Source: Streptomyces sp. NBC_00425
GTDB taxonomy: Bacteria > Actinomycetota > Actinomycetes > Streptomycetales > Streptomycetaceae
DNA length: 64,000 bases
NCBI RefSeq assembly: GCF_036030735.1
Contig: NZ_CP107928.1
Location: 8,866,001-8,930,000, forward strand
Direction: 5' to 3'
Made by a program: the position numbers and the translations under genes. Shown piece after piece: positions 26,126 through 30,141 of the stretch; positions within the stretch are counted from its first letter, which is position 1, and every line of letters begins with the position of its first letter. Below the pieces are notes generated by a model. That model was not told the origin of the DNA and did not search any database. It saw only the letters and a program-made list of their open reading frames with translations.

Positions 26126-26479
26126 TCAGCGGTGCAGTGAGCGCGCCCAGTCCTGCGGCACCCGCCCGGCCGGCCCCGGCGTCGGCTGGTCCGCGGGGTG
26201 GCTGACCGGCGGGGCCAGTTCCGGCCCCGACTCGTAGAGCTCGTCGGACGAGTAGTCCCAGAACCACTCCTCGCCCGGCTCGAAGCTTCGGACCAGGGGA
26301 TGCCCGGTGGTCTTGTAGTGGGCGGTGGCGTGCTGGGCGGGGGAGGAGTCGCAGCAGCCGACGTGCCCGCAGCTCGCGCAGCGCCGCAGGTGGAACCACC
26401 AGCCGCCCGCGGCGTCGCAGTCGACGCAGCCGTCCCCGCTGGGCGGGACGCTCGGGTCGATGCCGTCCACGTCGGTCAT
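26126..26479 (-). CDS. UBP-type zinc-finger protein
   Basis: The 117-residue protein is mostly one UBP-type zinc finger (about 16-80). Cys and His ligands are visible in GCVDCDAAGGWWFHLRRCASCGHVGCCDSSPAQHATAHYKTTGHPLVRSF, written here only to show the C-x2-C, C-x2-C and His pattern, with a following DYSSDEL. In eukaryotes this finger binds the ubiquitin C-terminus; the bacterial ligand is unknown. ATG 26479 overlaps the stop of the upstream histidine kinase as ATGA, so it is the third gene of the REC-TrxR/cNMP-kinase operon and is translated with it. Confidence 0.9.
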   Translation of the reverse strand: MTDVDGIDPSVPPSGDGCVDCDAAGGWWFHLRRCASCGHVGCCDSSPAQHATAHYKTTGHPLVRSFEPGEEWFWDYSSDELYESGPELAPPVSHPADQPTPGPAGRVPQDWARSLHR

Positions 26480-27966
26480 ACGGGCTCCTCAAGAGTCTCG
26501 GGGTTGTCGAGGTCCTGGTCGCCGTCGGCGCCGGGATCGGTGGCGGTCAGCGGCAGCAGGACCTGGAAGCGGGTGTCGCCCGGCGCGGACTCGACGTGCA
26601 GGCTGCCGTGGTGCTTGTTGACGACGATCCGCCACGAGATGTCCAGGCCCAGACCGGTGCCCTCGCCCACCGGCTTGGTGGTGAAGAACGGGTCGAAGAT
26701 CCGGCCCCGGATGTCCGGCGGGATGCCGGGGCCGGTGTCGCGGAACTCCACCAGCAGCCGGTCGCCCTCCCGCGCGGTCCGCACCGTCAGCGTGCCGTCG
26801 CCTCCGGCGCTGTCGACGGCGAACACGGCGTTGTCGACGAGGTTCGTCCACACCTGGTTGAGCTCGGCCGGGTAGGCGGGGATCTTCGGCAGGCTGCGGT
26901 CGTAGTCCTTGACGACCTGGATGCGCCGGCCGATCTTGCCCCCGAGCATCAGCAGGGTGCTGTCGAGGAGTTCGTGCACGTCGACGACCCGGTAGGGAGC
27001 ACGGTCGAGCTGGGAGTACTGCTTGGCGGCGTCGACGAGATGGGAGATGCGGTTGGTCGAGTCGTCGATCTCGTCCATCAACAGCTCGGTCTCGACGGTG
27101 TAGCTGAGCCACCCGATCGCGCTCGGCAGGATGTCCTCGTCGACCGCGGCGGCCACCTGCTCCAGCCAGTCCACGTCGAGGCCGGCCTGCACGAAGGTCG
27201 GCGCGATGCGCCAGCCCTCGGGGAGGCCGTGGTCGTCGAGCCAGTCGGTGAGCGCGTCCTCCCGGTCGGAGGCCTCCAGCGGACTCAACGTCGGTGCCTT
27301 GGCGACCAGTTCGGCCGTGCGCTCCTGGATCTCGATCAGCCGGGTCAGCGCCGCCGGCTCGTAGCCGCCGGAGGCGATCACGGCCAGCTTGTGCCGCATC
27401 TTCGCCACCCGTTCGCGCAGCGTGGCGGTGGCCCGCACGGCAGCCGCAGCCGGGTTGTTCAGCTCGTGCGTGAGACCGGCCGACAGCGAGCCCAGCGCCA
27501 GCAGCCGTTCGCGCTGACCGATGGCCCGCTGGGTGTTCTTCGAACCGAAGAACAGCCCCTCCAGCAGGTGGGCCGCCATCGGGAACCACTCCTGCATGAC
27601 CGCCGAGAAGGACTCGGCGGGCAGCACGAAGAACCGCGTCGGCTCCGTCACCCGCATGGAGTTCTGGTAGACCTGCGGCACCCGGTCGCCGAGGTAGGCC
27701 TGCATGGCCCCGGCGTACACCCCGCGCTGGGAGGTGCGGCTGACCTCGATGTCGTCCCCGCCGACCCGGCGGTACATCACGACCGAGCCCTCGAGCATCA
27801 CGTAGAAGCAGGTCGCCGGATCGCCCTCGGTGTAGACCGGGCCGGGCTCGAACTTCTCCACCCGCCCCTCGCCGCACAGCCGCCCCAGCTGGTCGGGGGA
27901 GAGCTTCTCGAACAGGAACAGCGAACTGATCTCGGCCGGGCTGCACGGCATCAGCCGCCCGCTCAC
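26476..27966 (-). CDS. Cyclic-nucleotide-binding-domain sensor histidine kinase
   Basis: A soluble 496-residue kinase. Residues about 15-125 form a cNMP-binding (CAP effector) domain (FEKLSPDQLGRLC, FYVMLEGSVVMYRR, RFFVLPAESF). The H-box has His167 in GLTHELNNP. The ATPase domain has N-box LNQVWTNLVDNAV, G1 DTGPGIP, F-box FDPFFTTK and G2 GEGTGLGL. No membrane helix is present, so the signal is cytoplasmic, perhaps a nucleotide or redox ligand. GTG 27966 overlaps the stop of the REC-TrxR gene as GTGA, making that protein its obvious phosphotransfer partner. ATG 27951 is an alternative start. Confidence 0.92.
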   Translation of the reverse strand: MSGRLMPCSPAEISSLFLFEKLSPDQLGRLCGEGRVEKFEPGPVYTEGDPATCFYVMLEGSVVMYRRVGGDDIEVSRTSQRGVYAGAMQAYLGDRVPQVYQNSMRVTEPTRFFVLPAESFSAVMQEWFPMAAHLLEGLFFGSKNTQRAIGQRERLLALGSLSAGLTHELNNPAAAAVRATATLRERVAKMRHKLAVIASGGYEPAALTRLIEIQERTAELVAKAPTLSPLEASDREDALTDWLDDHGLPEGWRIAPTFVQAGLDVDWLEQVAAAVDEDILPSAIGWLSYTVETELLMDEIDDSTNRISHLVDAAKQYSQLDRAPYRVVDVHELLDSTLLMLGGKIGRRIQVVKDYDRSLPKIPAYPAELNQVWTNLVDNAVFAVDSAGGDGTLTVRTAREGDRLLVEFRDTGPGIPPDIRGRIFDPFFTTKPVGEGTGLGLDISWRIVVNKHHGSLHVESAPGDTRFQVLLPLTATDPGADGDQDLDNPETLEEPV

Positions 27967-29639
27967 GACTGCTCCAGGTAACGGTGGACGAGCATCACGG
28001 CCATGGCTCCCTCTCCGACGGCGGACGCGACGCGTTTCGCGGACTCGGCGCGCGCGTCGCCCGCCACGAACACGCCGGGGATGTTGGTCTCCAGGTGGTA
28101 CGGCGGCCGGTCCAGCTCCCAGTCCGCCGGCGGCCGCCCGTCCGGTGTGAGGTCGGGTCCGGCGAGGATGAACCCGCGCTCGTCGCGCAGCACCGCGCCG
28201 TCCAGCCAGCCCGTCAGCGGGGCCGCGCCGATGAACACGAACAGCCACTGCGCGTCGACGAGTTCGCTCTGCCCGGTGGCCACGTCCCGCAGCGTCAGCT
28301 GCTCCAGGTGCCCCTCCCCGTGCGCGCTCTCGACGACCGTCCCGGCGCGCACCGAGATGTTGGGCGCCTCCTCGATCTGCTGGATCAGGTAGTGCGACAT
28401 CGACGCCGCCAGGGACTCCCCGCGCACCAGCAGCGTCACGGACTTGGCGCCCCGCGACAGGTACATCGCCGCCTGCCCGGCCGAGTTGGCGCCGCCCACG
28501 ATGTACACGTCGTGCCCCTGACAGGAGGCCGCCTCGGTGAGCGCCGACCCGTAGAACACCCCGCAGCCGGTCAGGTCGTCGCAGCCCGGGGCGGCCAGCT
28601 GCCGGTAGGACACGCCCGTCGCGAGGATCACGCTGTGCGCGGCCACCGCGGAGCCGTCCGAGAAGCGCACCACCCGGGCGGACCCGTTGACCTCGAGCCC
28701 GGTCACCTCGCGGGCGGTGAGGATCTCCGCGCCGAACTTGGCGGCCTGACGGCGCGCCCGCTCGGTGAGCTGTCCTCCGGAGACCCCGTCCGGGAAGCCC
28801 AGGTAGTTCTCGATGCGGGAGCTCTGCCCGGCCTGTCCGCCGGTCGCCGACCGCTCCACGAGCACCGTGCGCAGCCCCTCGGAGGCCCCGTACACGGCCG
28901 CGCCGAGTCCGGCCGGCCCGCCGCCGATCACCACGAGGTCGTAGAACTCGGCCGTCGGCGTGGTCGCCAGGCCCACCTGGGCGGCCAGCTCGGGCACGTC
29001 CGGCTCGACCAGGGGCGTGCCCTCCGCGGTGACCACCAGCGGCAGCCGCCGCTCGTCCACGCCGGCCGCGGCCAGCAGCCGCTGCCCCTCGGGCTCGTCG
29101 GCGGAGTACCAGCGGTAGGGCACCTGGTTGCGGGCCAGGAACTCCCGCACCTGCGAGGACCGTGCCGACCAGCGGTGCCCGACGACCTTCGTGGCGGGCA
29201 CGGGCCGGTAGTCGCTGGCGCGCCAGGCGTCCAGCAGATCGTCCAGGACGGGGTAGAGCTTCTCCTCCGGCGGGTCCCACGGCTTCAGCAGGTAGTGGTC
29301 GAGGTCGACGACGTTGATCGCGTCGATCGCCGCGCTCGTGTCCGCGTAGGCGGTCAGCAGCACCCGCCGGGCGCCCGGATACACGTCCAGCGCCTGTTCG
29401 AGGAACTCGATGCCGTTCATCTGCGGCATCCGGTAGTCGGCCAGGATCACCGCCACCAGGTCGCCGCGCAGCTTCAGCTCGCGCAGCGCCTCCAGCGCGG
29501 ACTCCCCGGACTCGGCGCGCACGATCCGGTACGAGGCGCCGTAGCGGCGCCTCAGGTCACGGGCGACGGCACGGGATACCCCCGGGTCGTCGTCCACGGT
29601 CAGGATGACGGTCCGCGCCGAATCGGCGGCCTGTGCCAT
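27963..29639 (-). CDS. Response regulator fused to glutaredoxin-like and thioredoxin-reductase-like domains
   Basis: The 558-residue protein has three parts. Residues 10-125 are a receiver domain with acidic pocket D16-D18, phosphoacceptor Asp68, Thr96 and Lys119, all intact. Residues about 150-224 have a glutaredoxin-like pattern (KVVGHRWSARSSQVREFL, then RLPLVV), but the CxxC is replaced by SARS. Residues 232-558 are a TrxR-type FAD/NAD(P)H module with VVIGGGPAGLG (236-246), a second nucleotide motif VGGANSAGQAA and the FAD motif VFVAGDAR. The TrxR CxxC site reads GVFYGSAL, so thiol chemistry of the usual kind is not expected. It heads an operon with a histidine kinase and a UBP finger. Confidence 0.92.
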   Translation of the reverse strand: MAQAADSARTVILTVDDDPGVSRAVARDLRRRYGASYRIVRAESGESALEALRELKLRGDLVAVILADYRMPQMNGIEFLEQALDVYPGARRVLLTAYADTSAAIDAINVVDLDHYLLKPWDPPEEKLYPVLDDLLDAWRASDYRPVPATKVVGHRWSARSSQVREFLARNQVPYRWYSADEPEGQRLLAAAGVDERRLPLVVTAEGTPLVEPDVPELAAQVGLATTPTAEFYDLVVIGGGPAGLGAAVYGASEGLRTVLVERSATGGQAGQSSRIENYLGFPDGVSGGQLTERARRQAAKFGAEILTAREVTGLEVNGSARVVRFSDGSAVAAHSVILATGVSYRQLAAPGCDDLTGCGVFYGSALTEAASCQGHDVYIVGGANSAGQAAMYLSRGAKSVTLLVRGESLAASMSHYLIQQIEEAPNISVRAGTVVESAHGEGHLEQLTLRDVATGQSELVDAQWLFVFIGAAPLTGWLDGAVLRDERGFILAGPDLTPDGRPPADWELDRPPYHLETNIPGVFVAGDARAESAKRVASAVGEGAMAVMLVHRYLEQS

Positions 29640-29784: not shown

Positions 29785-30141
29785 TCAAGGCGTCCGCCGC
29801 GCTCCCAGCACGCAGAACTCGTTGCCCTCCGGGTCGGCCAGCACCACCCACGGCTGCTCGCCCTGGCCGATGTCCACGTGCCGGGCGCCCAGCGAGACCA
29901 GACGGGCGACCTCGGCGTCCCGGTCGTCCGGCCGGAAGTCCAGGTGGAGCCGGTTCTTGACCGTCTTCGCATCCGGCGTCCGGCCGAACAGCAGGCCCGG
30001 CAGCCGGTCGGGCTCCGGTCGGATCTCGTACTCGTCGGACGACTCGTCGACCACGACCCATCCGAGGGCCGCCGCCCACCAGCGCCCGAGCGCCACCGGG
30101 TCGGCCGCGTCGACGATCACTTGCTCCCACTCCAAAGCCAT
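29785..30141 (-). CDS. VOC family protein (glyoxalase-like)
   Basis: A short single-module VOC protein of 118 residues. It begins WEQVIVDAADPVALGRWWAAALGW and ends WVVLADPEGNEFCVLGA, the usual first and last strands of this fold. The glyoxalase-like_dom form fits best; the substrate is unknown. ATG 30141 is preceded by weak purine content. It is divergent from the Usp gene, sharing a 62-bp promoter region. A small dyad (29760-29774) just past its stop may end the transcript before the REC-TrxR operon. Confidence 0.85.
   Translation of the reverse strand: MALEWEQVIVDAADPVALGRWWAAALGWVVVDESSDEYEIRPEPDRLPGLLFGRTPDAKTVKNRLHLDFRPDDRDAEVARLVSLGARHVDIGQGEQPWVVLADPEGNEFCVLGARRTP

Follow-up and report, generated by a model that had tools for sequence, protein, structure and literature searches.

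Three overlapping genes of Streptomyces sp. NBC_00425 appear to encode a two-component signalling system with an unusual output. They lie in a 64,000-nucleotide stretch of DNA (hereafter the window; contig NZ_CP107928.1, positions 8866001-8930000), about 0.9 Mb from the end of the single 9.8 Mb contig, and encode a fusion of a receiver with a glutaredoxin-like (Grx-like) and a thioredoxin-reductase-like (TrxR-like) domain, a histidine kinase, and a protein with a UBP zinc finger. Both redox domains of the fusion have lost their catalytic dithiol, and we refer to the two together as the dithiol-less module. Judged by sequence comparison, the trio is a real, conserved signalling system that is little described as far as we searched, with a plausible mechanism in which the response regulator would control a thiol-dead flavoprotein instead of DNA; for that mechanism in full, we consider the chances about even.

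27963..29639, minus strand: receiver-glutaredoxin-like-thioredoxin-reductase-like fusion, 558 amino acids
26476..27966, minus strand: histidine kinase with an N-terminal Crp-like domain, 496 amino acids (alternative start, the ATG at 27951)
26126..26479, minus strand: UBP zinc-finger protein, 117 amino acids (finger, residues 18-81; conserved tail, about residues 85-117)

The original prediction, made from the DNA alone, described genes overlapping by GTGA and ATGA, and its coordinates, strand and overlaps were exact. The GTG start codon of the kinase gene (27966-27964) shares bases with the TGA stop codon of the fusion gene (27965-27963), and the ATG start codon of the UBP gene (26479-26477) with the TGA stop codon of the kinase gene (26478-26476). 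Pfam matches above the cut-offs were Response_reg and Pyr_redox_2 for the fusion, cNMP_binding and HATPase_c for the kinase, and zf-UBP for the third protein.

A receiver joined to a redox module without dithiols

29268..29606, minus strand: receiver domain (Pfam Response_reg), residues 12-124, with Asp68, Thr96 and Lys119
28968..29198, minus strand: glutaredoxin-like domain, residues about 148-224, in which SARS (158-161, at 29168-29157) replaces CxxC
27966..28955, minus strand: thioredoxin-reductase-like domain, residues 229-558, in which GSAL (364-367, at 28550-28539) replaces CATC

The receiver had been predicted to be intact, and all residues of its phosphorylation site are present, namely the acidic pair Asp16 and Asp17 together with Asp68, Thr96 and Lys119. 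By these features, we class the fusion as a predicted two-component response regulator. A Pfam scan found no DNA-binding domain in the fusion, in agreement with the earlier claim that the system has no DNA-binding output.

The loss of cysteines from both redox domains, also part of the original prediction, held across the family. While catalytic relatives in the same phylum carry CPDC or CGDC at the Grx site and CATC at the TrxR site, the window protein has SARS and GSAL, and none of 68 aligned dithiol-less sequences had both cysteines at either site (the sequence from locus L186 has no residues at the second). We also looked for a CxxC elsewhere in the TrxR-like domain; the only cysteines of the window fusion are residues 353, 359 and 373, and no CxxC occurs anywhere in the protein. 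A single one of the 80 closest orthologues (L101) contains a CxxC, at residue 420, distant from both former sites. The motifs for flavin adenine dinucleotide (FAD) and nicotinamide adenine dinucleotide (phosphate) (NAD(P)H), i.e., GGGPAG, GGANSAG and GDAR, remain in the TrxR-like domain and are conserved, as had been stated.

Within residues 146-558, 69 positions were at least 95% conserved across the dithiol-less sequences. They include cofactor positions common to the CxxC relatives, and others are specific to the dithiol-less sequences (Tyr363, Ala387-Gly388-Gln389, Met414, Tyr417, Arg511, Glu517, and His552). This family-specific conservation speaks for a module maintained by selection for a different function, not one in decay. 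Against the TIGR01292 profile (low-molecular-weight thioredoxin reductase), the fusion scored 216 bits, below the curated cut-off of 343.45. Because the defining dithiols were looked for and are absent, we file the predicted protein neither as a thioredoxin reductase nor as a glutaredoxin. It could still be imagined that the fusion works as a thioredoxin-type disulfide reductase using cysteines elsewhere, e.g., Cys373, or the cysteine of a partner. Cys373 is indeed invariant in 30 close orthologues aligned, but it is kept in only 38 of the 68 dithiol-less sequences, and we rejected it as a substitute catalytic cysteine; with no CxxC in the window protein, we consider this reading very improbable.

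The Grx-like region of the window protein had no Pfam match, nor did this piece, searched alone against PDB sequences, match any solved chain. The assignment of residues ~148-224 as glutaredoxin-like is supported by a Nostoc orthologue (L164) that matches Pfam Glutaredoxin (25.4 bits; cut-off 22.9), and by two relatives with intact CxxC (L123 and L153) that match the same Pfam family and align with the window domain. It is further supported by the predicted model of the fusion, a middling-confidence model in which the order of elements fits a thioredoxin-type fold. The fold comparison covered residues 229-558 and barely reached the receiver and the Grx-like domain.

Pairing of the kinase with the fusion

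The 80 closest loci, which are best matches, mostly Streptomyces, and not an unbiased sample, all had the kinase gene next to the fusion gene; 52 kept the exact 4-base overlap, and 76 had a UBP-finger gene (on the opposite strand in L108). The closest matches of the fusion in the species-genome collection were from Streptomyces, and the trio is found in identical gene order on an annotated Streptomyces plasmid. Among 198 genomes of the phylum, 45 had a family match of any architecture (E ≤1e-60), and at 1e-80 the count was 61 of 99 genomes of the order. The kinase-fusion pair extends to cyanobacteria, Deinococcus and Burkholderiales, where the finger is absent. Among plasmids of other phyla, six loci were compared (Paraburkholderia, Deinococcus, Caballeronia, two Nostoc, and Gloeothece), and five had the kinase within 1.5 kb; at the remaining one, from Nostoc edaphicum (L162), fusion and kinase are separated by genes for a transposase and a bestrophin. 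The finger was found in none of the six within the stretch searched. These comparisons support the kinase and the receiver fusion as a conserved pair.

The integrity of the receiver was compared with the presence of the kinase in a wider sample of 51 receiver-bearing sequences, counting a kinase of this family within 1.5 kb. Asp68, Thr96 and Lys119 were all kept in 28 of 28 receivers with a kinase and in 4 of 23 without (Fisher p 1.8e-10, a value that overstates the correlation, as discussed below). The four sequences that keep the triad without a near kinase are those from L136, where a kinase cut by the contig end follows, from the interrupted locus L162, and from L144 and L177, the last of which begins at a contig end, opposite the usual side of the kinase. 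In the tree, kinase-linked, kinase-less and cNMP-fused proteins formed three groups, with four changes in all; for the separation of kinase-linked from kinase-less receivers, the count was 3 changes each. Within the 21 sequences of the kinase-less clade, Asp68 was kept in seven and Thr96 in three, with Ala, Gly or Asn at position 68, which fits relaxation of the receiver once the kinase is absent. The comparison thus supports the view that receiver integrity follows kinase presence. The kinase-less clade of receiver-bearing fusions, with mostly degenerate receivers, comprises L124-L131, L135, L137, L144-L146, L148, L150, L151, L175, L177-L179, and L185, and some genomes hold several family members.

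27592..27927, minus strand: Crp-like sensor domain of the kinase, residues 14-125, with no cyclic-nucleotide phosphate cassette
27466..27468, minus strand: His167, predicted phosphorylation site in HELNNPA
27130..27360, minus strand: helical insert between two phosphotransfer helices, residues about 203-279
26545..26868, minus strand: ATP-binding domain (HATPase_c, Pfam), residues 367-474

The kinase had been proposed to sense a ligand through a CAP-like domain. The fold part of this claim stood, with a Pfam cNMP_binding match of 33.5 bits (cut-off 27.5) and with DNR and NtcA as the best solved relatives by sequence, cAMP- and cGMP-dependent kinases being weaker. A cyclic nucleotide as the ligand did not stand, and we rejected it for the clade of the window. 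The phosphate-binding cassette with Glu and Arg, searched for with a loose pattern, was missing from all 80 close kinases. Outside the trio clade, the same pattern gave hits in 5 of 24 kinases (L132, L133, L134, L136, and one of L160); a similar-looking kinase, from L138, escaped it.

HELNNPA was present in 80 of 80 close kinases, while Pfam gave no HisKA match in the window kinase. In the predicted model, the phosphotransfer helices (155-201 and 280-320) are parted by four shorter helices, and the insert region is also visible in distant kinases among those listed in the alignment. It may be that the missing HisKA match results from this split of the phosphotransfer hairpin. The fold comparison of the kinase covered residues 159-476 and barely reached the Crp-like domain. 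The insert carries a conserved motif around SDREDxLxxWLxxxG and may serve as a docking platform for the receiver fusion. Two cysteines of the kinase, Cys8 (27945-27943) and Cys31 (27876-27874), were invariant in 29 close actinobacterial kinases aligned. We rejected the pair as a general thiol switch, as it was not seen in the other-clade kinases among those listed; Cys31 alone recurs in L134 and L136. A lineage-specific redox input through the two cysteines is possible.

Three kinase genes stand in tandem after one fusion gene in L142 (1907-6137) and L143 (1683-5907), as if several inputs fed one output, and in L159 and L161 the fusion is flanked by a kinase on each side. Several kinases beside one fusion, together with the strict pairing, would also be expected if the arrangement ran backwards, i.e., if the flavin/NAD(P)H module sensed the redox state of the cell and fed the kinase, the receiver serving as adaptor or phosphate sink. 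The kinase has, however, a sensor domain of its own, and in relatives the module sits on other input domains without this kinase, so that it looks like an output. We therefore regard the backward arrangement as improbable.

Several neighbouring genes were noted. The pair is followed by a gene for LtrA (low temperature requirement A) on one Deinococcus plasmid (L160:11340-12569) and two Nostoc plasmids (L162:12345-13574 and L164:9142-10317), the assignment being checked by Pfam for L160 and L164. Three cyanobacterial plasmids have glgX and an epimerase gene ahead of the fusion. In the window, a glyoxalase-like gene lies upstream (29785-30141); it was rejected as an operon member, being absent among the neighbours listed in the annotated S. 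fungicidicus locus. A promoter and terminator scan of the locus found none, a result that says little for this organism, and a PHROGs search gave generic matches only.

The UBP zinc finger and its genomic contexts

The third protein matched zf-UBP with 56.2 bits (cut-off 22.7), and Cys18, Cys21, Cys34, Cys37, Cys42, His50, His54 and His60 were invariant in 85 of 85 aligned fingers; on these sequence features, it is a zf-UBP protein. Fingers of the trio clade have a common conserved tail, PGPxGRVPxxW. The window finger matches a bacterial UBP zinc finger of known structure, PDB 2ida (E 7.5e-24, residues 10-90), deposited as a hypothetical protein, but the match stops short of the trio-specific C-terminal tail. 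In the PDB sequence search, the finger also aligned to USP5. The UBP finger of USP5 binds a free C-terminal Gly-Gly tail.

The finger was then compared for its association with the redox module. In 198 genomes, 14 of 62 UBP places lay within 5 kb of a fusion-family place (E ≤1e-60), counted by eye, and random placement predicted about 0.2. At one of the 14 (L129), the finger adjoins a fusion with a degenerate receiver and no kinase. The finger also occurs next to bare or cNMP-fused forms of the dithiol-less module that have no same-family kinase in the vicinity. Plasmid examples of a finger beside the module, with this kinase family absent, are those of Rhodococcus (L172), Agrobacterium (L168, cNMP-fused) and Burkholderia (L169), and in the last of these the next gene encodes an ATPase whose end resembles the ATPase domain of a kinase. 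Plasmids of Variovorax and Arthrobacter have a UBP gene but, within 5 kb of it, nothing that matches the fusion. The fusion of the module to a cNMP-like domain in L114, L120 and L168 suggests that the module is the constant part and that the input varies.

The Streptomyces genome of the window has three UBP genes: that of the trio, one just upstream of a cNMP-fused dithiol-less module (L114), and a third transcribed divergently from a Na/H exchanger gene (L115). At L114 (5067-10297), genes for ClpB, a thioredoxin, the UBP finger and the cNMP-fused module stand in a single run, suggestive of a link to protein oxidative stress. UBP fingers adjoin a Na/H exchanger (L115:5074-6986) or are fused to one (L166:1201-3288), and a Deinococcus exchanger has the finger as its C-terminal domain. 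At L190 (9245-9596), the match to the UBP gene is split between two reading frames, and either the finger may be broken there or the assembly may contain an error.

Proposed mechanism and comparison with known systems

In the mechanism we propose, the Crp-like domain of the kinase would read a cytoplasmic signal other than a canonical cyclic nucleotide. Autophosphorylation on His167 would follow, the phosphate would pass to Asp68 of the receiver, and phosphorylation would rearrange the attached module, with control thus running from kinase to flavoprotein. The module keeps its FAD and NAD(P)H sites but should be unable to reduce thioredoxin by dithiol exchange, which leaves two options: NAD(P)H may donate electrons via FAD to an acceptor other than a dithiol, or the module may be a cofactor-loaded switch that binds a partner. 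In many actinobacteria, the UBP finger would be a small, translationally coupled partner in physical contact with the module. We place electron transfer slightly ahead of pure binding, the former approaching an even chance in our judgement and the latter being a tentative but serious alternative.

Pure binding would make the module a pseudoenzyme switch without chemistry, in which FAD and NAD(P)H are structural or sensory ligands and the phosphorylated receiver promotes docking to the UBP finger or another protein. Such a switch is consistent with the loss of both dithiols together in 68 of 68 sequences, with the occurrence of the finger beside modules that lack this kinase, and with the use of one module behind several input domains. 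However, the cofactor positions show enzyme-like conservation, Tyr363 persists next to the site of the former CxxC, and the finger is often absent; we rate the pseudoenzyme as possible but short of an even chance. More speculatively, a redox lineage may have been rebuilt as a general signalling output, in which NAD(P)H and FAD are used newly, with an active site rebuilt around Tyr363, the switch is read by a ubiquitin-type zinc finger, and the inputs are a Crp-sensor kinase with a split hairpin, a fused cNMP-like domain, or a degenerate receiver. This wider scheme we consider rather unlikely.

Several observations weigh against the proposed mechanism. The receiver/kinase correlation reflects few evolutionary events, not 51 independent tests, and L144 and L177 keep the triad inside the kinase-less clade, with no same-family kinase nearby. 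Both structural models are of middling confidence (mean predicted local distance difference test score 74 and predicted template modelling score 0.48 for the fusion; 76 and 0.39, respectively, for the kinase). The remaining points concern the finger. It is absent from four of the 80 close loci (L046, L092, L101, and L112, of which L092 and L101 end soon after the kinase). Six of the 14 UBP neighbours are from Streptomyces and are not independent, the other eight coming from seven genomes of seven families. The remaining 48 of the 62 UBP places lie elsewhere, and the finger thus has other contexts too. In the wider sample, in which contig ends or the 6 kb flank truncate some stretches, the finger lay near 9 of 28 kinase-linked fusions, with none found at the other 19. 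From these counts and the kinase-less occurrences, the finger is best described as an optional partner of the module, not as a core part of the pair. The earlier proposal of the finger as a partner is accordingly more weakly supported, the finger being common in the close loci, less so in the wider kinase-linked loci, and not found at the plasmid loci of other phyla.

The response regulators characterised so far mostly target DNA or known signalling enzymes. If the proposed mechanism is true, a phosphorylation-controlled flavoprotein without catalytic dithiols but with highly conserved cofactor sites would tie two-component signalling directly to NAD(P)H chemistry, and the trio would offer a testable setting for a bacterial UBP zinc finger. 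The records examined name such proteins FAD-dependent oxidoreductase or thioredoxin-disulfide reductase. Both names hide a signalling role, and the latter implies a reaction that is probably impossible for them.

The original prediction also called the three-way association a distinct system. The neighbourhood check bore out a conserved pair; the combination of receiver (REC) and thioredoxin reductase, on the other hand, is already in print, since an archaeal two-component census includes REC-thioredoxin reductase response regulators in the passages concerned (PMC5847659), and in this respect the claim of novelty went too far. Those passages of the census mention neither cysteines, a kinase, a glutaredoxin-like domain nor a zinc finger. 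In the open-licence literature, subscription journals being outside the scope, the combination was found named only in these passages, and no paper was found on the loss of both dithiols, the correlation between kinase and receiver, the partnership with the finger or the split kinase hairpin.

Compared with known proteins, the window fusion differs from the thioredoxin reductases of TIGR01292/Pyr_redox_2 by GSAL in place of CATC and by the fused receiver and cysteine-less Grx-like domain. Grx-TrxR fusions with intact dithiols (L123, L152, and L153) have the same order of Grx and TrxR domains and 32-34% identity to the window fusion, but they have no receiver, carry CPDC or CGDC together with CATC, and have no same-family kinase nearby. 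The cNMP-fused TrxR-like proteins, one of which is annotated "cyclic nucleotide-binding domain-containing thioredoxin-disulfide ...", share the dithiol-less module and, in the paralogue of the window's own genome (L114), the UBP neighbour. In these proteins, however, the cNMP-like domain is fused directly to the module in place of a receiver with a separate kinase, and they form a separate group in the tree (support 80/49).

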